NCBI RefSeq assembly: GCF_937863595.1
Contig: NZ_CALMGQ010000057.1
Location: 62,001-126,000 of the forward strand
Origin: an uncultured Cytophaga sp.
Lineage (GTDB): Bacteria; Bacteroidota; Bacteroidia; Cytophagales; Cytophagaceae
Direction of reading: 5' to 3'
Length of the DNA stretch: 64,000 nt
Below, piece by piece: positions 6,334 to 29,208 of this stretch (its first letter is position 1; each line of letters starts with the position of its first letter). Under the pieces are notes generated by a model that did no database searches, was not told the DNA's origin, and worked only from the letters and a program-made list of their open reading frames with translations. The position numbers and the translations under genes are program-made.

Positions 6334-7718
6334 TACACTTTGAACCCAATCAATCCAATTTGTTTATTCCAGATACACTTTCAACTTATAAAAAAAACCT
6401 TGATACCACATTTATTTGGGGCGTTTCTACATCAGCATACCAAACTGAAGGTGGTTATAATGTAGATGGTAAAGGCCCTTCTATTTGGGATACATTTACA
6501 AATAAGGATACCCATAAAATACGAGATAAAAAGAATGGAAATATAGCCTGTGATTTTTATAGCCGCTATGAAGAAGATTTGAAATTAATGCATGCATTGG
6601 GAATCAATCATTTTAGATTTTCTATTTCATGGGCCCGGATTTTACCTTATGGAATTGGTGAAATCAACCCTGCAGGTGTTGCGTTTTATGATCGTTTAAT
6701 TGATGCATGTTTAAAATATAATATTACGCCTTGGATTACATTATACCATTGGGATTTACCGCAAGCGCTAGAAAATAAAGGTGGTTGGACGAACCGAGAA
6801 GTTGTCAATTGGTTCACCTCTTATGTTTCGATTTGTGTAAAATATTTTGGTGATCGGGTTTCCAACTGGATGGTAATGAATGAGCCCATGGTATTTGTTG
6901 GTGCTGGTTATTTTTTAGGTATTCATGCACCTGGTAGAAGAGGAATGAAAAATTTTTTACCTGCAATTCATCATGCCGTATTAAGTATGTGCGAAGGTGC
7001 GCGAGCAATAAAATCCATTCAACCTGGAGCCAACGTTGGCACAACGTTTTCGTGCTCTCATATAGAACCATATAGAAATATTGATAAAGATGTTTTAGCA
7101 GCACATAGGATGGATGCGCTTTTAAATAGACTATTTATTGAGCCAACTCTGGGAATGGGCTATCCAACAGATGTATTAAAACCATTGCAGCCCATTCATC
7201 AGTATATTTTACAAGGCGACGAATATAAAATGCAATTCAATTTTGACTTCATAGGTGTTCAGAATTATACACGAGAATTTGTTAAACATTCGTGGTTAAC
7301 CCCCTACTTAAAAGCTAGACTTGTTAGTGCTCCAGATAGAAATGTTCAACATACATTAATGAATTGGGAAGTATATCCACAGTCCATTTACCATATGATT
7401 AAAAAGTTTGATGCCTACCCCGGAATAAAAAAAATATTGATTACAGAAAACGGTGCAGCATTTGAAGATACCCATCACGAAAGAATTATTGCTGATCATT
7501 TAAGGACAATATTCTTGCAAGATCACATAGAACAAGTGTTAAAAGCAAAAAAGGAAGGAGCAAAAGTTGAGGGCTATTTTGTTTGGACATGGACCGATAA
7601 CTTTGAATGGGCAGAAGGATTTTATCCACGTTTTGGCCTGATTTACACAGACTTCAATACACAAAAACGCATTGTGAAAGAATCAGGAGCTTGGTATGGG
7701 AATTTTATACGTGGCTAA
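6330..7718 (+). CDS. Glycoside hydrolase family 1 (beta-glucosidase-like)
   Basis: A full-length GH1 enzyme of 462 residues. It begins FIWGVSTSAYQTEGGYNVDGKGPSIWDTF, contains the acid/base motif MNEP (Glu185) and the nucleophile motif ITENG (Glu373), and ends with WTWTDNFEWAEGFYPRFGL. These are diagnostic of retaining beta-glycosidases of the (beta/alpha)8 barrel type. No signal peptide is present, so it should act in the cytoplasm on short beta-linked saccharides. It is coupled to the upstream glycosyltransferase and precedes a debranching-type enzyme, forming a small carbohydrate locus. Confidence 0.93.
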   Translation: MIHFEPNQSNLFIPDTLSTYKKNLDTTFIWGVSTSAYQTEGGYNVDGKGPSIWDTFTNKDTHKIRDKKNGNIACDFYSRYEEDLKLMHALGINHFRFSISWARILPYGIGEINPAGVAFYDRLIDACLKYNITPWITLYHWDLPQALENKGGWTNREVVNWFTSYVSICVKYFGDRVSNWMVMNEPMVFVGAGYFLGIHAPGRRGMKNFLPAIHHAVLSMCEGARAIKSIQPGANVGTTFSCSHIEPYRNIDKDVLAAHRMDALLNRLFIEPTLGMGYPTDVLKPLQPIHQYILQGDEYKMQFNFDFIGVQNYTREFVKHSWLTPYLKARLVSAPDRNVQHTLMNWEVYPQSIYHMIKKFDAYPGIKKILITENGAAFEDTHHERIIADHLRTIFLQDHIEQVLKAKKEGAKVEGYFVWTWTDNFEWAEGFYPRFGLIYTDFNTQKRIVKESGAWYGNFIRG

Positions 7719-7902
7719 ACATCTATTTTCTATTTTAGTTCCCCTAAAATTTTCACTTAATTTATACGGGAGGCCACCTTTTTTAACGGCAATTATATGT
7801 GGATTAGTAAAATATAGATTACCTTAGTATATCAATTTGTTTACAACAATACCCCCTTAAGTGTAAGCAAACATTACTAAGATTATCATTCTACATACTG
7901 CT

Positions 7903-9888
7903 ATGTTACGATTAGACAAAACCGCCATTCAAACTGATGTTCACAAGTTATTCTATGGCTCTTCTGGTAAACTTTGGGAAGGCAACGAATGGATAGAAAC
8001 AAATGGCTTGGGTGGCTGGGCAAGTAGTTCTTTAAGTGGTTGCAATACGCGTAGGTACCATGGAATGCTAGTTGCAGCGACGAAGCCGCCAACTGAACGC
8101 ATGGTTTTAGTAAACAAATTGGATGAAATCATCGTTATAAATGATGAATTTATTCCATTGAATACAAATAAATTTCGTGAAGCAATTTCGCCTCAAGGTT
8201 ATTTATTACTAACTGAATTCAAAAAGGATTTTTTTCCAGAATTTATTTTTGAATCGCATGGTGTTGTAATTAAAAAAACAGTTGCGATGGTACAAGGTGA
8301 AAATACAACGGTTGTATTGTACAATGTATTGAAAGCGTCTTCCTCCTTTACGTTTAAATTACTTCCATTAATATCTGGAAGAGACTATCATTCGTTGCAT
8401 TCAGCAAATGAGGAGTTTAATAAAAAATGCACGTTTGAAAACGGAATATTCAAAACGAAACCCTATGCATCCACTCCTGAAATATTTATTTCTATTCCGA
8501 ATGCAGCGTTAAGGGAAGATCCGAATTGGTTTTATCAATTCGACTACGCTATAGAACGCTACAGAGGTGCTGATTGCGAAGAAGATTTATTTAATCATGG
8601 AACATTTTCATTGAAATTAAATGCGGGTGATTCTTTTGGTGTAATTCTTTCAACAGAAGACCCAACAGGTAGAGATCCCTTTCAACTTTTCGAAATTGAG
8701 CGTAAACGCAAAGCTCAATTGCTTGAAGGAAAGTCAAACAATTCCACTGTAGAACAATTAACATTGTCAGCAAATCAGTTTATTGTTACGCGTTCAGAAA
8801 ATTTAAAAACAGTTATTGCAGGATATCATTGGTTTACCGACTGGGGTAGAGATACAATGATTTCTTTGCCAGGTTTATGTTTAACAACTGGAAAGTTTGA
8901 TGACGCCAAGCGCATTCTGAAAGCCTTTGCTGAAAGTGTACAGAATGGCATGATCCCAAATCGTTTCAAAGATGGAAACGAAGCACCTGAATACAATAAT
9001 GTTGACGGGACACTTTGGTTTTTCGTAGCGGTATATAAATACCTTCAAACGACACAAGACAGAAATTTTGTACTCAATGAGATTCTTCCAATATTAAAAG
9101 ATATTGTTGACCATCATTTTAAAGGCACCTTGTTCAATATCAAAGTAGACGAGGATAACCTTTTACATGCAGGAGAAGTTGGGCAACAACTCACTTGGAT
9201 GGATGCAAAAGTTGGTGATTGGGTTGTTACGCCGCGCATGGGTAAGCCGGTTGAGATACAAGCATTGTGGTATAATAGTTTAAAAATATTTGCATCGTTA
9301 TTAGAGACTAATTCTCAATCACAAGATGCAGCGGCAATGGAAACGGCAGCTGAAAAAACAAAGGAATCATTCTTAGCTAAATTCTGGAATCAAAACGGGA
9401 ATTATTTATACGATTTAATAGGTGAAGACAATCAACCAAACGATTGCATTCGCCCGAATCAACTTTTTGCAATCAGTCTTCCGTTTCAATTATTAGAAGG
9501 CGAAAAAGCACAAGCTGTATTTAATTGTGTAGAAGAACATTTATATACACCAGTTGGTTTGCGGAGTTTAAGCCCTCATGATCAAAATTATTATGGCATC
9601 TACCAAGGAGATGGAAAAAGACGTGATGCGTCCTATCACCAAGGCACGGTATGGAGTTGGCTTCTTGGACCCTACCTGGACGTTATGATGCGCGTTGGTG
9701 GCGACCATGCACATCGATTAAGTAAAAAAGTTATTACTAATTTTACCTACCATTTAGAAGAAGCGGGTATCGGTAGCGTATCGGAAATATTTGATGGAGA
9801 TGCGCCGCATCACCCACGTGGTTGTATTGCACAAGCTTGGGGTGTTGCCGAAGTATTGCGCGTTATTGAAGAATACCAACTATCGTAA
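7903..9888 (+). CDS. Glycogen debranching-type enzyme (amylo-alpha-1,6-glucosidase, GH133-like)
   Basis: A 661-residue protein. The N-terminal domain contains TNGLGGWASSSLSGCNTRRYHG, typical of the bacterial/archaeal glycogen debranching enzyme N-domain. The C-terminal (alpha/alpha)6 barrel contains HWFTDWGRDTMISLPGL, RFKDGNEAPEYNNVDGTLWF and YHQGTVWSWLLGPY. These mark an alpha-1,6-glucosidase that trims glycogen branch stubs. It has no signal peptide and so is probably cytosolic. It is followed by a strong hairpin terminator, and a 184-bp gap separates it from the GH1 gene, so it probably has its own promoter. Confidence 0.9.
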   Translation: MLRLDKTAIQTDVHKLFYGSSGKLWEGNEWIETNGLGGWASSSLSGCNTRRYHGMLVAATKPPTERMVLVNKLDEIIVINDEFIPLNTNKFREAISPQGYLLLTEFKKDFFPEFIFESHGVVIKKTVAMVQGENTTVVLYNVLKASSSFTFKLLPLISGRDYHSLHSANEEFNKKCTFENGIFKTKPYASTPEIFISIPNAALREDPNWFYQFDYAIERYRGADCEEDLFNHGTFSLKLNAGDSFGVILSTEDPTGRDPFQLFEIERKRKAQLLEGKSNNSTVEQLTLSANQFIVTRSENLKTVIAGYHWFTDWGRDTMISLPGLCLTTGKFDDAKRILKAFAESVQNGMIPNRFKDGNEAPEYNNVDGTLWFFVAVYKYLQTTQDRNFVLNEILPILKDIVDHHFKGTLFNIKVDEDNLLHAGEVGQQLTWMDAKVGDWVVTPRMGKPVEIQALWYNSLKIFASLLETNSQSQDAAAMETAAEKTKESFLAKFWNQNGNYLYDLIGEDNQPNDCIRPNQLFAISLPFQLLEGEKAQAVFNCVEEHLYTPVGLRSLSPHDQNYYGIYQGDGKRRDASYHQGTVWSWLLGPYLDVMMRVGGDHAHRLSKKVITNFTYHLEEAGIGSVSEIFDGDAPHHPRGCIAQAWGVAEVLRVIEEYQLS

Positions 9889-18100: not shown

Positions 18101-18706
18101 CTAATATTCGCCCATTGAACGAAATGTAAGATTTATCCGAGGAAGTTGCACCTTTTTTGTTTTTAGCAAAGCATGCTGCCAATATTTTTGGGTAGCTCCT
18201 TTCATAAGCAATAAACTCCCATTTGCTAAAAATTGCTTTACGACTAGTTTTGTGGTTTTATGTTTAAAGGAAAATGTGCGTTCGGCACCCAAACTAACCG
18301 AAGTGATACAGGCATTTTCTACGAGAGATTTTTCATCATCACTATGCCAAGACATTCCTTCTTCCCCTGAATGATATAAATTCAACAAGCAGGAATTAAA
18401 TGTTTCACCAGAAATTTTTTCAACCAAGGTTTTCAATTCCATTAATTCTTTTGTCCAAGGCAAAGCCTTTTTCTTTGTATTTGAATACGAATACTCAAAC
18501 GATTTGTCGCCATACCATGCAACCATGCGCTTAGTAACATAGTGTTTGCCATATATAAATGATTCGTCATGCTTCCATTCAATGGAATCAAGGAGTGCAT
18601 TAAAATACTCCTTCGCACGTGCAGTATCTATAATACTACCATGATATTCCACAACACCGTCGTAAGGCAAGAGATTTTTTGTTGGGTCTTGATTGAATAA
18701 ATCCAT
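18101..18706 (-). CDS. AlkB-like 2-oxoglutarate/Fe(II) DNA dealkylase
   Basis: The ATG at 18706 gives a 201-residue protein starting MDLFNQDPTKNLLPYDG. It has the AlkB-type core: TKRMVAWYGDKSFEYSYS, NLYHSGEEGMSWHSDDE (iron ligands His and Asp in HSDD), then the distal His in YWQHALLKT and the 2-oxoglutarate-binding Arg in RINLTFR. This layout matches the ALKBH2/3-like group that oxidatively removes methyl groups from DNA bases. Thirty further codons are open upstream but are encoded by a repeat and are unlike the family. It lies downstream of an MGMT-type repair gene on the same strand. Confidence 0.88.
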   Translation of the reverse strand: MDLFNQDPTKNLLPYDGVVEYHGSIIDTARAKEYFNALLDSIEWKHDESFIYGKHYVTKRMVAWYGDKSFEYSYSNTKKKALPWTKELMELKTLVEKISGETFNSCLLNLYHSGEEGMSWHSDDEKSLVENACITSVSLGAERTFSFKHKTTKLVVKQFLANGSLLLMKGATQKYWQHALLKTKKVQLPRINLTFRSMGEY

Positions 18707-18713
18707 GGGGAAA

Positions 18714-18895
18714 GAAAGTACTAAGTACGGAGTATTAAGCACAAAGTAAGTGAAAATAGTTTTACATGTTGCTCGATTCATTAAACTGAATAGCATCCAT
18801 TACGTTCCGTATATTATCATACCATTGGGGGAATATGTTGTCCATTTTAAAGCCGACTTTGTACTCCGTACTTAATACTCCGTACTTTTTTGTCC
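18714..18895. repeat. Inverted pair of about 30-bp repeats between the alkB-like and ada-like genes
   Basis: The sequence near 18717-18748 contains AGTACTAAGTACGGAGTATT. A related copy runs in the opposite orientation near 18857-18893, where the minus strand reads AGTACGGAGTATTAAGTACG. The right copy supplies the last codons and stop of the ada-like gene. The left copy encodes the unlikely N-terminal extension of the alkB-like frame. The origin of the element is unknown. Confidence 0.5.
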
Positions 18896-19732
18896 TCCTT
18901 CCCAGCCGATCATCGCTGTCTTTCGCAGTGGGCCCCACATATAGCCTCCAAACTGACCAGAGGATTGAATCACCCGATGACATGGAATCAGAAATGCAAT
19001 CGGATTGCTTCCAATGGCTGTACCCACGGCTCTTGAAGCGCTAGGCTTATCTATAGCTTTGGCTATTGTTCCGTAAGTTGTCAAATTGCCAAAGGGTATT
19101 TTCAATAAGGCTTGCCATACGTTTAATTGAAAATCGGTTCCTTTTAAATGCAATTTGATTTGAGACAGATTTGTCCAATCTGTTGAAAAAATAGCCAGAG
19201 CTTGTTTATGCATTTTTGTCTCTACCTTTTCAAACAATGCTTTCGGAAATTGCTTTTTAAAAGAATCAAAACTGCGTTCTTGATTTTCAATAAAAGTCAA
19301 ATGGCAAATTCCTTTTGATGTAGAAGCAACAAGTACTTCTCCAAAAAATGTTTGCGAAAAACTATATTGAATGGTTAACTGTGCTCCTTCGTTTTTATAT
19401 TCTGCAGGTGTCATTCCCTCAATCTTTATAAACAAATCGTGCAACCTACTTGTACTAGACAAGCCAATTTGATGTGTTACATCAAGCAAATTTACAGCAG
19501 AAGTTTGTATGATTTTTTTAGCATGTTGTATACTGATATATTGCAAAAATGCTTTGGGGCTTACTCCTGCCCATTCACTAAATATGCGTTGAAAGTGATC
19601 GGGGCTCAGATGCACTGCTGCCGCAATTTCTTCTAGGCTGGGTTGTTTCGCATAATGTGTCTGAATATATGCAATCGCTTCTTCAATGCGTTTATACTGT
19701 ATGGTAGCTTGCTCGTTCATGTTTTTATTCAA
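18872..19732 (-). CDS. AraC-type HTH / methylated-DNA-protein-cysteine methyltransferase fusion (Ada-like)
   Basis: A 286-residue fusion. Residues 10-105 are an AraC-family double helix-turn-helix (HYAKQPSLEEIAAAVHLSPDHFQRIF and GLSSTSRLHDLF). Residues 120-280 are an O6-alkylguanine methyltransferase with the active-site motif IPCHRV and the helix TTYGTIAKAI. The N-terminal zinc/Cys phosphotriester-sensing domain of full Ada is missing, so it should repair O6-methylguanine directly, but how it would sense damage for transcription is unclear. The last residues (KSTEY and stop) fall in a repeat element, so the C-terminus may have been altered by insertion. Confidence 0.9.
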   Translation of the reverse strand: MNKNMNEQATIQYKRIEEAIAYIQTHYAKQPSLEEIAAAVHLSPDHFQRIFSEWAGVSPKAFLQYISIQHAKKIIQTSAVNLLDVTHQIGLSSTSRLHDLFIKIEGMTPAEYKNEGAQLTIQYSFSQTFFGEVLVASTSKGICHLTFIENQERSFDSFKKQFPKALFEKVETKMHKQALAIFSTDWTNLSQIKLHLKGTDFQLNVWQALLKIPFGNLTTYGTIAKAIDKPSASRAVGTAIGSNPIAFLIPCHRVIQSSGQFGGYMWGPLRKTAMIGWEGGQKSTEY

Positions 19733-19845: not shown

Positions 19846-20976
19846 TTAGAATGGATTGCCGTGCGTCTGTTGAATAATTTTTTTAGTAATGGAGGGAAAC
19901 TGATGGAGAACTTTCAAACTCATATCTGTCAGATTCTTTTTGCCAAATAATCCCTGTAAATAATATCCAATCATAATTCTCGTATCAAACTGCTGTTCCC
20001 AAGCATTTTGATACGTTCTAATGAACACCTCTTTTGAAATATTTCCTTTAGAAAAAGAAGCTAGTAACTGAGCAAATATATGTGAGGCACGTAATGCCAT
20101 ACTCATGCCATTTCCACATAAGGGTGTTACCGAGCCAGCCGCATCGCCCAATAAGAATATACCATTTCTATAGGTCGACTTTTTACGAAACGTTACATTA
20201 CTTATTACAAGCGGTTCTTTAAATAAAAATTCAGCCTGTGTAAAGTGTTTTTTTAAAAATGGATTCTTGAACAATACGTTCTCTTCCATTTTTTTGATGT
20301 CATTCTGTGCGTTATTCAATTGAATGGAATTGACTAAATAACACATACAATACGCATCCAAATCTACTTTAGAAATTCCGCAATAGCCTCCGCTAAAATT
20401 ATGAAGTTCTATCCTATCCGTTGGCAAATCGGTTTTAATGTGATATTTTACTCCGATGTAATTCTCTTTATTGTGTTGCTTCTGTTTTTTGGAATGTATG
20501 AATTGAGGTGTGTATTTTCCGTAGGTTCCACATACGATATTTGAAGTGTAATATCCTTGTGATGTTTCTATTCGGTAGGAATTTGAATCGAGTTGTATTA
20601 CATTCAATACGTTGCAATTCTCACGTATACATATACCCTTTTGTTTGGCTACTTCATACAGTTTAAAATCGAGTGTATGTCTGCTTATGCCAAAGCCACC
20701 TAAGGGCAAAGTTGCATTCAGCATAAATCCTTTTTCAGAACTAATTCCGACAGTATTTATTATGGGTACGTTTAGCTCCGCCAAAGGAATTCCTAGTGCG
20801 GTGATGAAATTCCAACTTTCCATAGAGATGTATTCGCCACATACTTTATGAAAAGGATACGTTTTTTTTTCAAATAAAATGACTTCGACCCCTGCATCGG
20901 CTAATTGTATCGCCAAGGATAAGCCAGCCAAACCTCCGCCAATAATAGCGCATGAATAATTGTTATTTGTTTCCAT
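19846..20976 (-). CDS. FAD-dependent oxidoreductase (geranylgeranyl reductase / monooxygenase-like)
   Basis: The ATG at 20976 gives a 376-residue flavoprotein. It has the N-terminal FAD Rossmann motif AIIGGGLAGLSLAIQLADAGVEVILFEK, the family motif KVCGEYIS, and the second FAD motif GIFLLGDAAGSVTPLCGNGMSMAL. This is the para-hydroxybenzoate-hydroxylase-like fold shared by geranylgeranyl reductases and aromatic hydroxylases. It overlaps the methyltransferase gene by 14 bp. In the context of a type III polyketide synthase it could hydroxylate a resorcinol ring, as SrsC does in the Streptomyces srsABC pathway, or reduce a prenyl tail. The substrate is not known. Confidence 0.85.
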   Translation of the reverse strand: METNNNYSCAIIGGGLAGLSLAIQLADAGVEVILFEKKTYPFHKVCGEYISMESWNFITALGIPLAELNVPIINTVGISSEKGFMLNATLPLGGFGISRHTLDFKLYEVAKQKGICIRENCNVLNVIQLDSNSYRIETSQGYYTSNIVCGTYGKYTPQFIHSKKQKQHNKENYIGVKYHIKTDLPTDRIELHNFSGGYCGISKVDLDAYCMCYLVNSIQLNNAQNDIKKMEENVLFKNPFLKKHFTQAEFLFKEPLVISNVTFRKKSTYRNGIFLLGDAAGSVTPLCGNGMSMALRASHIFAQLLASFSKGNISKEVFIRTYQNAWEQQFDTRIMIGYYLQGLFGKKNLTDMSLKVLHQFPSITKKIIQQTHGNPF

Positions 20977-21655
20977 ATACAATCACTTGATGTCGGAATG
21001 CCCACATATTTTTTATGGAATAAGCCGTTACTCCTGCTTTATCCATAATATCCTTCCATTCCTTTTTCTTAAAGCCTCTAGCAACAGATAAGGGCGCATC
21101 ATTTTTAACCAAGTACGATTTTGAAAAAAGTTTCGTCAAGCATAAAATTGCAGTATATGCAATCGTATTCCGTTCTAAATCATTAATCAATAAAATGGTT
21201 TTATGTTGTTTCGCAAATTGCATCAACTCTATCAATTGCTCTTCTGAAAGATGATGGCAAAACAAGCAGGCATGAATGATGTCAACATGTGGAATATAAT
21301 CGAACAATCGCCTATAATCGTCGCAAATAAAATGTATCGGATAATTCGCTGCATGTGCATTTGCGTAATCAATGCAGATAGGATTGAGATCAATACCGGT
21401 CAGTGAAACATATCTATTCTTCTTTTTAAACCAATAGTGAAGTACCTGCAATGTATCGCCACCTCCACAACCAATATCCACAAGACTTGATATCTTATTG
21501 TTCTTCAAAATTTTTTGTATGCCAGACAAACTAATACGATAACCACCTAGCCACGTATTGATAAAATTTAACTCTTTCAGATTTAAAAATAAATCTTTCT
21601 TCGGTATATCCGTAGCATCTAATAACTCCTTCTCGTGGCTTCTATATTTAAGCAT
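20963..21655 (-). CDS. SAM-dependent methyltransferase in the type III PKS cluster
   Basis: A 230-residue class I methyltransferase. The SAM-binding motif I is SLVDIGCGGGDTLQVL, motif II includes LTGIDLNPICIDYA, and the post-motif VDIIHACLFCHHLSEEQL is typical of small-molecule methyltransferases. It overlaps both neighbours (8 bp with the PKS, 14 bp with the flavoprotein), so it is certainly co-expressed with them. By analogy with SrsB it may methylate a phenolic product, but the target is inferred from the neighbourhood only. Confidence 0.88.
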   Translation of the reverse strand: MLKYRSHEKELLDATDIPKKDLFLNLKELNFINTWLGGYRISLSGIQKILKNNKISSLVDIGCGGGDTLQVLHYWFKKKNRYVSLTGIDLNPICIDYANAHAANYPIHFICDDYRRLFDYIPHVDIIHACLFCHHLSEEQLIELMQFAKQHKTILLINDLERNTIAYTAILCLTKLFSKSYLVKNDAPLSVARGFKKKEWKDIMDKAGVTAYSIKNMWAFRHQVIVYGNK

Positions 21656-22736
21656 ACATCAATTTCAATGTTTCGATACTTAAACCTGGACCAAACGCTG
21701 CTACAAAAATAGATTGTCCAATAGTTGGATGTGTATTTTTTTCTAATAAATTTTTCAATACAAATAATACCGTAGGTGATGACATATTTCCATAGTCACG
21801 CAACACCTCATACGATGATTTTAATTTTTCTGCATTTAGATTTAATGCATCGCAAAACCCATCAATAATTTTTTTACCCCCCGGGTGTACGGCCCACAGA
21901 TCAATATTTTCTGATTGAACATTGATGCTCTCTAACATGGATTTTATGTTGCCGTTAATTAAATCCGATACATAGGAAGTTAAATTCATTTTAAATCCCG
22001 TCTCCGATAATTGCCACGCCATATCGTTTGCGCCTTCATGCAACAATAAGGAATGAAAGCCATTTAGCTTAATTAAATCTTTATCTTGATATTTATTAGG
22101 TGTAGCTTCGACCAAAACAACTGCGCAGCCATCACCAAACAATTGATTTGAAATGATGTAATCGTCTGAATAATTCTTTTGAAAGTGAATGGAACATAAT
22201 TCCGTACATACAACCAACACGCGTGCATTGTTATTACTCTTACAAATTGCATCTGCTTGCTTTAAGGCTAATATGGCGGCATTGCAACCCATAAAATTAA
22301 TGCTACACCTGTCTATCGTAGGATTTAATTGCAATGCTTGAGCCAACTGAATATCTAAACCAGGCGCAATCAACCCCGTACATGTAACGGTAATAATATG
22401 GGTAATAGATGATTTAATGGATTCGAAATTTTTTATTTTAAGTACAGTTCCTATAGACAATTTAAGTGCTTCATGGTTATATATGTCCATACGCTTTGTT
22501 AAACTTGGCTCTGGTAAAAGACTTTCACATTTAGGAAAAAATTTAAACTCAGATGTAGACACACTAAAATCTTTTAATACCGAATGACGCGTTTCGATAC
22601 CCGTTTTAGTTCCAATGATTTTTATCTTCCGCTGTATTTCAGTGTCGTCCGTTGAACGAGCATAAAACTCAGAAAACACTTTTTGATTGTGTTTGTAAGC
22701 TGGCACGCCAGTCTCTATGGCTGAAATATATGTCAC
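21648..22736 (-). CDS. Type III polyketide synthase (chalcone/stilbene synthase family)
   Basis: The protein shows the full catalytic triad of type III PKSs: Cys119 in TVTCTGLIAPGLD, His in LWAVHPGGKKIID and Asn in YGNMSSPTVLFVL, with the C-terminal AFGPGLSIE loop. It should condense malonyl-CoA onto an acyl starter. I chose the GTG at 22736 because it overlaps the stop of the UbiA gene by 4 bp (GTGA) and gives a family-like N-terminus (VTYISAIETGVPAYKH, 362 aa). An ATG at 22784 would add 16 residues and a 52-bp overlap. The product is probably an alkylresorcinol or alkylpyrone. Confidence 0.93.
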   Translation of the reverse strand: MTYISAIETGVPAYKHNQKVFSEFYARSTDDTEIQRKIKIIGTKTGIETRHSVLKDFSVSTSEFKFFPKCESLLPEPSLTKRMDIYNHEALKLSIGTVLKIKNFESIKSSITHIITVTCTGLIAPGLDIQLAQALQLNPTIDRCSINFMGCNAAILALKQADAICKSNNNARVLVVCTELCSIHFQKNYSDDYIISNQLFGDGCAVVLVEATPNKYQDKDLIKLNGFHSLLLHEGANDMAWQLSETGFKMNLTSYVSDLINGNIKSMLESINVQSENIDLWAVHPGGKKIIDGFCDALNLNAEKLKSSYEVLRDYGNMSSPTVLFVLKNLLEKNTHPTIGQSIFVAAFGPGLSIETLKLMYA

Positions 22737-23617
22737 GCGAAAGTATTCATAATGTATAATATTAGAAAACAAGTATTCATGCATATAGCTGCAAGCAGAT
22801 TCATACGCATGGTATGTTTAAAATTTGCTGCAGTTCTATCTTTAATAACTGTACTGAACCAATACACATAATACCCAACAATTGGAAGGAAGAACAGTTG
22901 CAAAATATAAAACGAGCTCAAAGATTCCGTTGCATTAAAGTAAAGGAAATAAAATAGGTTTGTACCTAGAAACATGATACCTGTAAACAAGAATGTTCCA
23001 ATATACCCCAGTTTATAACTAATGGTAATAACGCCATCTTTATAATCTTGTTGATGCTGATAAATCTGTGTCAATGGATAAGCGCCTGCAATTTGTAGAG
23101 AGCAGGCTATAAGTAAATAAATTATCGGCTGATTCAGTTCCAATAACTGGCCAGTAATACCTAACACACACATATAATACGTGAAAGCACCTTGAAAAAA
23201 TACCACTGTAAGAAATCCGATGTAGGGATATTTTTTTAGTCGAATGGTTTTAGAGCTATAGGCTCTTGAAGCTAGGATGTATAAAAAAATACAAATTGCA
23301 AACTTCCAATGAATACAGACAACAGATAGAATCAATGCAAGTATGTCCAAAAAAACTGTTACATAAAATAATTGTATGGTTGGCAATGGTGGATTTTCTA
23401 TACCGCCAATGCTGCCTTCGTCTTGATCGACATAACTGTTGTAGCCATTACTTGCTGGATATACCAGTAGATGTATTATGAGAAAACTCACAATTACATT
23501 AAAGTTTAAAATATTCACTCCTGATTGACTTAATGCCAATAGGAATAAAGGCATCAATAAAAATGAAAAAGGTATGCGCAATAAGGTGACCGTGTTTTTA
23601 TCTATCAAGTTTGCCAT
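22733..23617 (-). CDS. UbiA-family prenyltransferase in the PKS cluster
   Basis: A 294-residue polytopic membrane protein with about eight or nine helices. The first Asp-rich motif appears as NGYNSYVDQDEGSIGG, and the second as YQHQQDYKDGVITISYKLG. Both are used by UbiA enzymes to bind Mg2+ and a prenyl diphosphate. It is the first gene of the four-gene minus-strand operon and overlaps the PKS by 4 bp if the GTG start is used. It probably attaches an isoprenoid chain to the aromatic polyketide, giving a membrane-bound meroterpenoid. Confidence 0.85.
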   Translation of the reverse strand: MANLIDKNTVTLLRIPFSFLLMPLFLLALSQSGVNILNFNVIVSFLIIHLLVYPASNGYNSYVDQDEGSIGGIENPPLPTIQLFYVTVFLDILALILSVVCIHWKFAICIFLYILASRAYSSKTIRLKKYPYIGFLTVVFFQGAFTYYMCVLGITGQLLELNQPIIYLLIACSLQIAGAYPLTQIYQHQQDYKDGVITISYKLGYIGTFLFTGIMFLGTNLFYFLYFNATESLSSFYILQLFFLPIVGYYVYWFSTVIKDRTAANFKHTMRMNLLAAICMNTCFLILYIMNTFA

Positions 23618-23800
23618 TCCTAAGGTATCTATTCAAAACTGAATTTGAATAGATAAGTTACACCCTTTAAAAGGAAATTCCTTATATCAAAGCTGGGATT
23701 TATTGCAAAATTATTCTGCATTAGAAAATATACGTTCCGTTTATACTCTTAATTCTTTAGAAATGAGTTTTTTATACGAGCTACGTTTATAGGCCTTGAA

Positions 23801-24331
23801 TTAGCGCTCAAGTATCACTTTTAAATTTACCATATTTTGTGTCTGTGCATCCTTGATAATGGATTTACCTACAAAAGATAGCGCATTCCAAGGATAGGAA
23901 TCATGGCCATAAAATTCGCTTATTACTTTGGTTTTATTTTCACCAATGTCTTTAACTATCGTTGCCGCCTTTTGTTCTCCCTCAAAAGGTCTTTCAAATC
24001 GTATATCAACTTCAACTCGCTCTCCGTCTACTTTTGTGATTTTCTGCTCTCCCTCTCCTACTTGGTCGTTACTGCTACTCCAGTGTGCAACAAATCCAAG
24101 TGTTCCGTCTACACCTGTATACGTCATTACAAGATTTGAATCTTTCATTACCCAAACGCTATAGTATTCTTGATTCTTTAATGACTTCACAAAATCGTAC
24201 ACTTCTTTTTGCGGCTTATTTATAACAGTAGAAACCGAAACCGTATAGGTACTTGGCATAATGGCGGCTACAAGCAAAAATAGCGCAACAAATACGCCAA
24301 CAATAACTGTTATTACTTTAAGTATTTTCAT
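23801..24331 (-). CDS. SRPBCC-family protein with N-terminal membrane anchor
   Basis: A 176-residue protein. Residues 4-26 (LKVITVIVGVFVALFLLVAAIMP) form one membrane helix or uncleaved signal. The remainder is an SRPBCC (polyketide cyclase/dehydrase/START-like) domain opening with VSTVINKPQKEVYDFVKSLKNQEYYSVWV. These domains bind hydrophobic ligands. It is separated from the PKS operon by 183 bp, so a link to that pathway is only a possibility. A 21-bp gap to the next SRPBCC gene suggests one transcript. Confidence 0.78.
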   Translation of the reverse strand: MKILKVITVIVGVFVALFLLVAAIMPSTYTVSVSTVINKPQKEVYDFVKSLKNQEYYSVWVMKDSNLVMTYTGVDGTLGFVAHWSSSNDQVGEGEQKITKVDGERVEVDIRFERPFEGEQKAATIVKDIGENKTKVISEFYGHDSYPWNALSFVGKSIIKDAQTQNMVNLKVILER

Positions 24332-24352: not shown

Positions 24353-24778
24353 CTAATTATTTTCTGTATATGATTTAAAACTATTCAAAATCGCTTGCCA
24401 ACCCGCTTGTTGCAATTTGATTGAATTCTCCGATTCAGGCTCAAAACGCTGTACTATTTTTATTTTTTCTTCAACGATAGAAAACGCAATCGTTGCTTTT
24501 CTTCCATCACCCATGGTATAGGCAATCCATTCCGTAGGTTTAACTTCGTCGTAGATTCCCCAAAAATCAAAACGCATACTGCCGTCTTTCGCAGCCATCG
24601 TCGTTGTAAATTTTCCACCCACACGCAAATCATTTTCCGCTTTCGGAGCATGCCAATCTGGAGATGCATGATTCCATTGCGTAATATGTTCGGGTGCATT
24701 CCAATAACTCCACACTTTATCGATTGGCGCATGAACGATTGTTTCAATAGTAATGGGATTTTTCATATTTTTAAACAC
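24353..24778 (-). CDS. SRPBCC/AHSA1-family protein
   Basis: A 141-residue START-like protein: ITIETIVHAPIDKVWSYWNAPEHITQWNHASPDWHAP, then GGKFTTTMAAKDGSMRFDFWGIYDEVKP and the closing helix GWQAILNSFKSYTE. This is the typical activator-of-Hsp90 homologue 1 (AHSA1)-like layout, common in Bacteroidota with unknown ligands. An internal Met at residue 5 is an equally good start. It lies directly upstream of another SRPBCC gene on the same strand. Confidence 0.82.
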   Translation of the reverse strand: MFKNMKNPITIETIVHAPIDKVWSYWNAPEHITQWNHASPDWHAPKAENDLRVGGKFTTTMAAKDGSMRFDFWGIYDEVKPTEWIAYTMGDGRKATIAFSIVEEKIKIVQRFEPESENSIKLQQAGWQAILNSFKSYTENN

Positions 24779-27553: not shown

Positions 27554-28846
27554 TTACATGTTCAATAAATGCGTCTTCCCCAAAGCTGTTATTTGATTCT
27601 TCGGAACACCTGCCTCTTGTGCATACATAGACCAATCACGTATTACAGCAATTACTTTCTCAATAATTTCTTTCGGCTTTTTAATATTCATTTGTTTTGC
27701 TAGCGACAATAAATCTTCGCGCGTTATATCTTCTCTTTTCCCATTTACAGATAGTTGGTGTTTGCCAATCCATTTGTTTGCGGGGTTGTACGCATAGGTA
27801 ACATCATAGGCGGGCGATAAGCTCCACATACCAGACGTATCCATCAGAAACGAAATATTTTTTGTATGATCATCTTGATTGCGGGCGATCACATTAAAAA
27901 CCATGCGTAGATACAATTGCTCTGCATCTGTATATGGCAATCGCAATTGGCGCATTGCTTGAAACGCTTGTTCGTACGAATATGCATTTGGATTATTATA
28001 ATCAAAATGACACATTCCACAAAGTGTTTGCATGTGTAGTTTTTCATCATTGGCAATGCGATCAAAACGTTTGGTCATAAAATGTGCCCTACCGTTTTCT
28101 TCCAATAATTTACTCGGCATCATTACAATTCCACACGCAACAGCCATTTTATAATAGGCATACTCAATGCGTCCATACCCTTTGGGATCGCCCAAGGCTT
28201 CGTTGGTTACACCATCAAATTTTATGAGCCAATGTTCAAATCCTTTCTGAGATTTTATTTGTCCAGAACGTACTTCCCCTGTTTTTTCATTATATGCAAC
28301 CACAGCTTTTGCACGTGCACCACCAGCAGAGGTACCTACACGAATAATATCTGAAAATGTTTCTGCATCATCATTCGAAAAATGACTATCTAAGGTTTCT
28401 TTAATCGACAAAGCCTTTTTAGAAAGTTCTACCAAGTCACCAATCTCCAAGCCTTTCGACGGTTCTTTTTCATTGCGCTCTGTCGGTTCAAATTCTAAGG
28501 CGCCCATACCGCGTGAACCCAAATAACACAATCGTTCAACCGGACTCATACTGTCTTTGTCGCGCCCTTTTGACGCCAGCCATAAATCAATCAACTGATT
28601 CCCGAACCGATCGGGCAAGGCATCCGATAACAAGCCTGGCAAACCATGAAACGTTTCTTTAGGAAGATTTGCAAACTGAAAAATTTCTCCGCTACGTGCA
28701 TTTTCTAATGGCATCATAATCGGCGCAACATCCAAACCCGATTTTAAAAAACCTGCTTCAAATTCAAAAGTGGCATAGTCTTTTTCGTAGTTCCACAAGA
28801 CAGCGCCTACTCGTTGCCCCCACAACATCACGTTTGCTACTACCAT
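27554..28846 (-). CDS. hipA: HipA-family serine/threonine kinase toxin
   Basis: A 430-residue full-length HipA. The N-terminal subdomain has LPDRFGNQLIDLWLASKGRD. The kinase body has GGARAKAVVAYN (P-loop-like), HWLIKFDGV, and the active-site segment NVIARNQDDHTKNISFLMD with the catalytic Asp and metal ligands. HipA phosphorylates glutamyl-tRNA synthetase in E. coli, which triggers growth arrest. The target here is unknown. The gene overlaps the hipB-like gene by 7 bp on its upstream side, the usual antitoxin-first order, so both are co-translated. Confidence 0.92.
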   Translation of the reverse strand: MVVANVMLWGQRVGAVLWNYEKDYATFEFEAGFLKSGLDVAPIMMPLENARSGEIFQFANLPKETFHGLPGLLSDALPDRFGNQLIDLWLASKGRDKDSMSPVERLCYLGSRGMGALEFEPTERNEKEPSKGLEIGDLVELSKKALSIKETLDSHFSNDDAETFSDIIRVGTSAGGARAKAVVAYNEKTGEVRSGQIKSQKGFEHWLIKFDGVTNEALGDPKGYGRIEYAYYKMAVACGIVMMPSKLLEENGRAHFMTKRFDRIANDEKLHMQTLCGMCHFDYNNPNAYSYEQAFQAMRQLRLPYTDAEQLYLRMVFNVIARNQDDHTKNISFLMDTSGMWSLSPAYDVTYAYNPANKWIGKHQLSVNGKREDITREDLLSLAKQMNIKKPKEIIEKVIAVIRDWSMYAQEAGVPKNQITALGKTHLLNM

Positions 28847-29208
28847 TCGCTTTCAGGTTTGTCTTTTTTGCTTTTGTTTGAAGCACGCTTGCGCATGTTG
28901 GCTTGCTGCTCTGCAACCATCAGCGGACTGATTTCTTCTTTTATAACAAAGGCATCAAGCAAATCTAAATTATTGAGCCCACGCAGCAATTGCACAAAAC
29001 TTAACAAACTACCCACACGACCATTCTCTATTTCACTGATGGTACTGCGAAACAAACCACAACGATCGGCAAGCGCTTGTTGCGTAAGATTGTTTTTTAG
29101 ACGCATGCGCTTTAGTTGCTTGCCCAACTCTTCAATGATTGCGGGATCACTAAGTGCATACCAGTTTATATTGTTGCTTAAGTACGACATAATACATGTA
29201 ATAAGCAT
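28840..29208 (-). CDS. hipB: HipB-like XRE antitoxin
   Basis: A 122-residue protein with an XRE helix-turn-helix at about residues 31-85 (LGKQLKRMRLKNNLTQQALADRCGLFRSTISEIENGRVGS) and a basic C-terminal tail. It lies directly upstream of and overlaps hipA, so it should be the cognate antitoxin and autoregulator. A TATATTTG -7 element and TGTTGC-containing repeats upstream (29209-29314) are candidate promoter and operator. ATG at residue 7 is a possible alternative start. Confidence 0.9.
   Translation of the reverse strand: MLITCIMSYLSNNINWYALSDPAIIEELGKQLKRMRLKNNLTQQALADRCGLFRSTISEIENGRVGSLLSFVQLLRGLNNLDLLDAFVIKEEISPLMVAEQQANMRKRASNKSKKDKPESEW

Follow-up and report, generated by a model that had tools for sequence, protein, structure and literature searches.

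The window, that is, the whole 64,000-nucleotide stretch analysed here from contig NZ_CALMGQ010000057.1 of an uncultured Cytophaga sp., carries a compact group of four genes on its minus strand. From 23617 down to 19846, they encode a UbiA-family membrane prenyltransferase (UbiA), a type III polyketide synthase (PKS), a class I S-adenosylmethionine (SAM) methyltransferase, and a flavoprotein that binds flavin adenine dinucleotide (FAD). The open reading frame (ORF) list and the DNA place them in this order with head-to-tail overlaps throughout (Table 1). The initial annotation had described four overlapping genes at this place, and this is confirmed after correction of two start codons. The listed PKS ORF, which begins at 22784, is too long: matches to homologues start only at its residue 16-18. 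Since relatives match from there, and since a GTG codon sits within the GTGA that overlaps the UbiA stop codon, we placed the PKS start at this GTG. For the flavoprotein, the ATG at 20976 is more likely the start than the alternative TTG at 20982. The promoter of the operon likely lies in the gap upstream of the UbiA gene.

Table 1. Genes, overlaps and putative promoter place of the operon (window positions).
Feature	Coordinates	Strand	Basis
UbiA-family membrane prenyltransferase, 294 aa, first gene	22733..23617	minus	PF01040, structure model, invariant residues
Type III PKS, 362 aa, start GTG 22736	21648..22736	minus	PF00195/PF02797, homologue alignment, DNA
Class I SAM methyltransferase, 230 aa, PRK06202-like	20963..21655	minus	PF13649, NF004851
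FAD flavoprotein, 376 aa, aromatic hydroxylase/halogenase fold	19846..20976	minus	PF01494, TIGR02032, structure model
UbiA stop/PKS start overlap, GTGA, 4 bp	22733..22736	minus	sequence
PKS/methyltransferase overlap, 8 bp	21648..21655	minus	sequence
Methyltransferase/flavoprotein overlap, 14 bp	20963..20976	minus	sequence
183-bp gap 5' of UbiA, putative promoter place	23618..23800	minus	no ORF of at least 100 aa before the SRPBCC gene

The four genes form one conserved unit

An alignment of the UbiA protein was used to scan one genome per species, and at least 569 relatives were confirmed. In all of the 80 best of them, a type III PKS gene adjoins the UbiA gene, and most of these 80 loci share the complete order UbiA-PKS-methyltransferase-flavoprotein. 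They come from Bacteroidota (such as Dyadobacter, Chitinophagaceae, Saprospiraceae, Solitalea, Mucilaginibacter and Niastella) or from unnamed bacteria, and many are metagenome-assembled genomes; plasmid sequences searched with the UbiA protein gave zero matches. The initial annotation had named a lack of conserved gene order as a finding that would speak against it, and the neighbourhood survey finds the order kept in most of the 80 loci. Because the unit recurs in this way and the catalytic triad of the PKS is conserved (see below), the arrangement is not due to chance.

The genes are also inherited together. In a survey of 59 genomes of the order, in which PKS presence was called at 150 bits or above, the UbiA subfamily was found in 42 genomes and the PKS in the identical 42 (Fisher p of about 4e-15, uncorrected for kinship); the flavoprotein occurs in 40 and the methyltransferase in 39 of these. 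UbiA and PKS genes stand apart in 16 of these 42 genomes, one of which has them at contig ends, so their co-occurrence is more than linkage. A genome of the same genus as the window carries this operon as well (locus L034). The two are jointly present or jointly absent in families f1, f9, f11 and f18, and in a sample of 296 genomes across the phylum, each of the 21 with a strong UbiA match also has a PKS match above the Pfam cut-off. Finally, clustering of neighbouring genes returned only the UbiA, PKS, methyltransferase and flavoprotein families as widely recurrent. Together with the overlaps, the 80 loci and the 42 shared genomes bear out the view that the four genes are one functional, biosynthetic unit, and they support UbiA as a genuine partner in the pathway.

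The genes on either side were considered as further members of the operon and rejected, as their neighbourhood is kept only within the genus. Upstream, on the same strand, lie two SRPBCC genes (polyketide cyclase-like/AHSA1-like) at 23801-24331 and 24353-24778, the first of which was the candidate. Directly downstream, at 18101-19732, Ada-like (AraC/O6-alkylguanine methyltransferase) and AlkB-like genes, an alkylation-repair pair, keep their place beside the operon within the genus. Further away, at 27554-29208, a HipA-like kinase gene overlaps an XRE-type regulator gene, and their translations point to a probable hipBA toxin-antitoxin pair.

Features of the four proteins

The UbiA protein belongs to the UbiA superfamily (PF01040, 54 bits; cut-off 34). 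Its AlphaFold model contains nine helices at a predicted local distance difference test (pLDDT) score of 96.4, and it aligns to AfUbiA (4tq4) over 275 residues with a VIA Z of 23.8. AfUbiA and ApUbiA are its nearest structures (Z 21-24), soluble prenyl synthases reaching at most 14.5. Its two motifs depart from the canonical forms: motif 1 reads NSYVDQDEG (N60-S-Y-V-D64-Q-D66) instead of NDxxDxxxD, the metal ligands N and D being invariant and the second and last D lost, and motif 2 reads Q187-H-Q-Q-D191 instead of DxxxD. AfUbiA binds geranyl diphosphate (GPP) and Mg through R22, N68, D72, K146, D198 and D202, and has Y139/S140 at its reaction centre (PMC4106721). By motif position, R22, N68, D72, Y139, S140 and D202 correspond to R14, N60, D64, Y120, S121 and D191 of the window protein, K146 roughly to R126 or K128, and D198 to Q187. 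These counterparts of the diphosphate-binding and reaction-centre residues are invariant in 59 relatives, Q187 included. As controls, 31 other UbiA loci were scanned in these and related genomes. DxxxD is present in 12 of them (MenA-like and DGGGP/BchG-like), and the 19 of a third group did not match the search pattern. Judged from these residues, the protein is more likely a working prenyltransferase with a variant motif than a dead enzyme.

The sequence NSxWDKDEGPIGG and a Gln at the same place of motif 2 mark a more distant UbiA group (family f42 of the phylum, loci L179-L182) that has no PKS adjacent. It lies next to a thioredoxin-like protein and a conserved 300-residue protein (AHEHRV...PVMDFLFEYY.FRPS), the latter giving no match in Pfam or NCBIfam.

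The PKS matches PF00195 with 110 bits and PF02797 with 86 bits (cut-off 27 each), as expected for a type III enzyme, and its triad C151, H284 and N317 is kept in 53, 53 and 52 of 53 relatives, respectively. Its active-site letters gave no decisive indication of the starter. In 11 Dyadobacter loci, UbiA and PKS are read as one frame of 652-656 residues (at about 6995-8960 of these loci), in which an internal TTG, the former PKS start, is retained in all 11. The C-terminus of UbiA is predicted from the charge pattern to lie outside, so that a fused PKS would lie outside as well, despite its dependence on CoA. For both reasons, we dropped this fusion as proof of channelling; the Dyadobacter PKS may still be translated separately from the internal TTG.

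A tree of type III PKS proteins, whose deep forks are weak, separates three settings in Bacteroidota: associated with UbiA, adjacent to an ICMT-family methyltransferase, and of a Flavobacteriia type. The second was seen in five loci, in which the PKS gene stands beside a gene for an ICMT-family membrane methyltransferase, like bpsAB of Bacillus (the Pfam match was tested in one of them, L188). The Flavobacteriia-type clusters, sampled in four loci, have the order flavoprotein, methyltransferase, PKS, FabA/Z-like dehydratase, FabF-like ketosynthase, carrier protein and phosphopantetheinyl transferase. They contain the same flavoprotein subfamily (350-419 bits) and the same methyltransferase, without UbiA. 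One reading of this gene content is a swap of tail-making modules: one lineage would draw the lipid tail from an isoprenoid, and the other would obtain it through a dedicated acyl-ACP module. A plasmid of the gammaproteobacterium Psychrobacter urativorans (locus L159, 4989-7812) carries a PKS gene that falls inside the UbiA-associated clade, with methyltransferase and flavoprotein genes and without UbiA. This triad is likely a case of horizontal transfer.

The methyltransferase is of the class I SAM type (PF13649, 38 bits) and resembles PRK06202, scoring 119 bits against NF004851, under the cut-off of 243. Plasmids of Proteobacteria, Deinococcus and a planctomycete carry homologues of it next to type III PKS and flavoprotein genes.

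The flavoprotein matches PF01494 (49 bits; cut-off 22). Its top curated profile is TIGR02032, that of geranylgeranyl reductase (GGR), at 89.2 bits, under the cut-off of 158.8, and membership of that family is thus not established. By profile, it groups with a GGR/halogenase-like branch and not with the UbiH branch, and its FAD-motif region GDAAGxxxPxxGxGM, read from the translation, is of the GGR type. Its model (pLDDT 91) has a group A fold nearest to the halogenases PltA/ChlB4/FasV and to p-hydroxybenzoate hydroxylase (PHBH), at Z 33-36; single values are 36.5 to ChlB4/FasV, 33.6 to PHBH and 31.9 to the GGR-like 3oz2. Its more likely role is ring hydroxylation.

Known systems with similar gene content

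By analogy of gene content, the agq cluster of Actinoplanes missouriensis comes closest among known systems; the initial annotation had missed this precedent. According to the summaries in later articles, the product of its type III PKS is prenylated and hydroxylated to give 6-alkyl-4-O-dihydrogeranyl-2-methoxyhydroquinones, and its membrane prenyltransferase O-prenylates a small polyketide in vitro (Awakawa 2011, cited in PMC7692728, PMC3569393, PMC10896814 and PMC4044012). As described there, agq combines an alkylresorcinol-forming type III PKS with agqB-agqD, a membrane prenyltransferase being among the enzymes and a prenylated methoxyhydroquinone being the product. Compared with this description, the PKS, methyltransferase, flavoprotein and membrane prenyltransferase of the window have agq-type content. 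The likeness is one of gene content. The agq cluster belongs to another phylum, and the Bacteroidota UbiA carries QxxxD and its gene overlaps that of the PKS. Through agq, bacteria offer one known case in which a UbiA protein prenylates a type III polyketide, and the novelty of a prenylated PKS-derived lipid at our locus is weakened to that extent.

The initial annotation had drawn a parallel with srsA-srsB-srsC of Streptomyces griseus. It holds for gene content, as the PKS, methyltransferase and flavoprotein are joined in one operon. In srsABC, as in the PkQ operons of Mycobacterium and Streptomyces, a PKS, a methyltransferase and a flavoprotein hydroxylase lead to quinones, but the operons are described without a prenyltransferase. 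The pairing of a type III PKS with a UbiA prenyltransferase occurs in plant cannabinoid-type pathways, which differ in the PKS starter and have unrelated tailoring genes. The same three gene classes (methyltransferase, oxidoreductase and type III PKS) are found in hidABC of cyanobacteria and in a planctomycete operon; these hid-type triads yield alkylresorcinols (PMC10896814). There, the order is methyltransferase-oxidoreductase-PKS and UbiA is absent, unlike the UbiA-PKS-methyltransferase-flavoprotein order of the window. A planctomycete triad on a Paludisphaera plasmid is homologous to the window proteins, with 32% identity for the PKS, 25% for the methyltransferase and 21% for the flavoprotein.

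Other UbiA proteins were compared as well. UbiA-297/EboC of the ebo cluster is, like ours, a UbiA-family aromatic prenyltransferase that occurs in Bacteroidota, but it stands among eboA-F, has a DxxDxxxD motif and is accompanied by no PKS (PMC9235831). For its different neighbours and motif, an identification of our UbiA as EboC was rejected. A UbiA gene lies near the Micromonospora type III PKS locus losA, and in one actinobacterial plasmid record searched for agq sequences, the UbiA genes lie far from the PKS.

Proposed product and alternatives

The operon is real, conserved and devoted to one pathway, and the class of its product is probable. On balance, we favour the reading that the four genes make a polyketide phenol with prenyl, methyl and hydroxyl groups, a lipid of the quinol/quinone type, by a logic like that of agqABCD. 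The four chemical steps and the sequence in which they occur are inferred, and so are the starter, the length of the prenyl chain and the biological role. The PKS would condense malonyl-CoA onto an acyl starter to form a resorcinol-type ring, to which the methyltransferase would add a methyl group on carbon or oxygen. Hydroxylation by the flavoprotein would then give a hydroquinone able to cycle with its quinone, and the membrane UbiA would attach a prenyl chain, again at a ring carbon or oxygen, which would give the product its lipid character and keep it in the membrane. A membrane-anchored prenylated aromatic polyketide had been suggested in the initial annotation; the type of product, a methylated, oxidised and prenylated phenolic lipid, gains a direct precedent in agq, whereas prenyl transfer, given the variant motif 2, and ring methylation are predictions.

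Several points weigh against this reading. In every member of the subfamily, the first Asp of motif 2 is Gln, and motif 1 lacks its third Asp, the equivalent of D76 in AfUbiA. In AfUbiA, the D198A mutation cuts the affinity for GPP 45-fold, and the equivalent EcMenA mutant is non-functional (PMC4106721). None of the sequence features examined fixes the PKS starter or ring type, the flavoprotein may reduce rather than hydroxylate as its top profile (below cut-off) is that of GGR, and a Bacteroidota product of such genes is unreported in the literature searched.

The motif changes could mean that UbiA no longer prenylates. It would instead bind what the PKS makes, or tether the three soluble enzymes (PKS, methyltransferase and flavoprotein) to the membrane, and the end product would be an alkylresorcinol or alkylquinone that lacks a prenyl group, like those of srs, PkQ and hid. 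The single UbiA-PKS frames of Dyadobacter and the frequency of triads without UbiA elsewhere agree with such a role. A plain anchor, however, would have no need for R14, N60, D64, Y120, S121 and D191, which are invariant in 59 sequences. It is also at odds with the distance between the two genes in 16 genomes and with agq, which involves true prenyl transfer, and we regard it as improbable. If the flavoprotein were to reduce double bonds of the prenyl chain, as GGRs do and as the dihydrogeranyl group of agq implies, the ring would stay unhydroxylated. This is suggested by the TIGR02032 match and the GGR-type FAD motif, but the score falls short of the cut-off, the fold is closer to PltA/ChlB4/FasV and PHBH than to 3oz2, and the same subfamily accompanies the PKS in the UbiA-free Flavobacteriia clusters; we regard this option, too, as improbable.

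A further alternative concerns the tail and role of the product. UbiA might provide the isoprenoid tail for a quinone of the respiratory type, the ring of which would be a polyketide made from a short PKS starter; the membrane would then hold a second redox carrier in addition to menaquinone. Prenylation, methylation and FAD-dependent hydroxylation are the reaction classes of ubiquinone synthesis, polyketide quinones carry electrons in Mycobacterium and Streptomyces, and the module is retained in 42 of the 59 genomes of the order. Nothing indicates the starter length directly, however; UbiA and PKS are both missing from 17 of the 59 relatives, so the module is not essential in the order, and agq products bear long alkyl chains with a short prenyl chain. 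We consider this alternative unlikely. The same low likelihood is given to the broadest form of the proposal, a large unrecognised family of Bacteroidota lipids made by an obligate PKS-UbiA (QxxxD) pair and serving as a second redox carrier beside menaquinone.

No paper on a UbiA-PKS gene pair in Bacteroidota was found in the literature searched, which covers subscription journals little, and the wide, obligate form of this pair with QxxxD appears to be undescribed there. The at least 569 UbiA relatives, the best 80 of which all lie beside a PKS gene, lead us to propose that common soil and water Bacteroidota probably make an undescribed class of membrane lipid. The analysis also identifies a prenyltransferase subfamily with an altered metal-binding motif and connects it to the one pathway built on this logic that has been worked out, in an actinobacterium.

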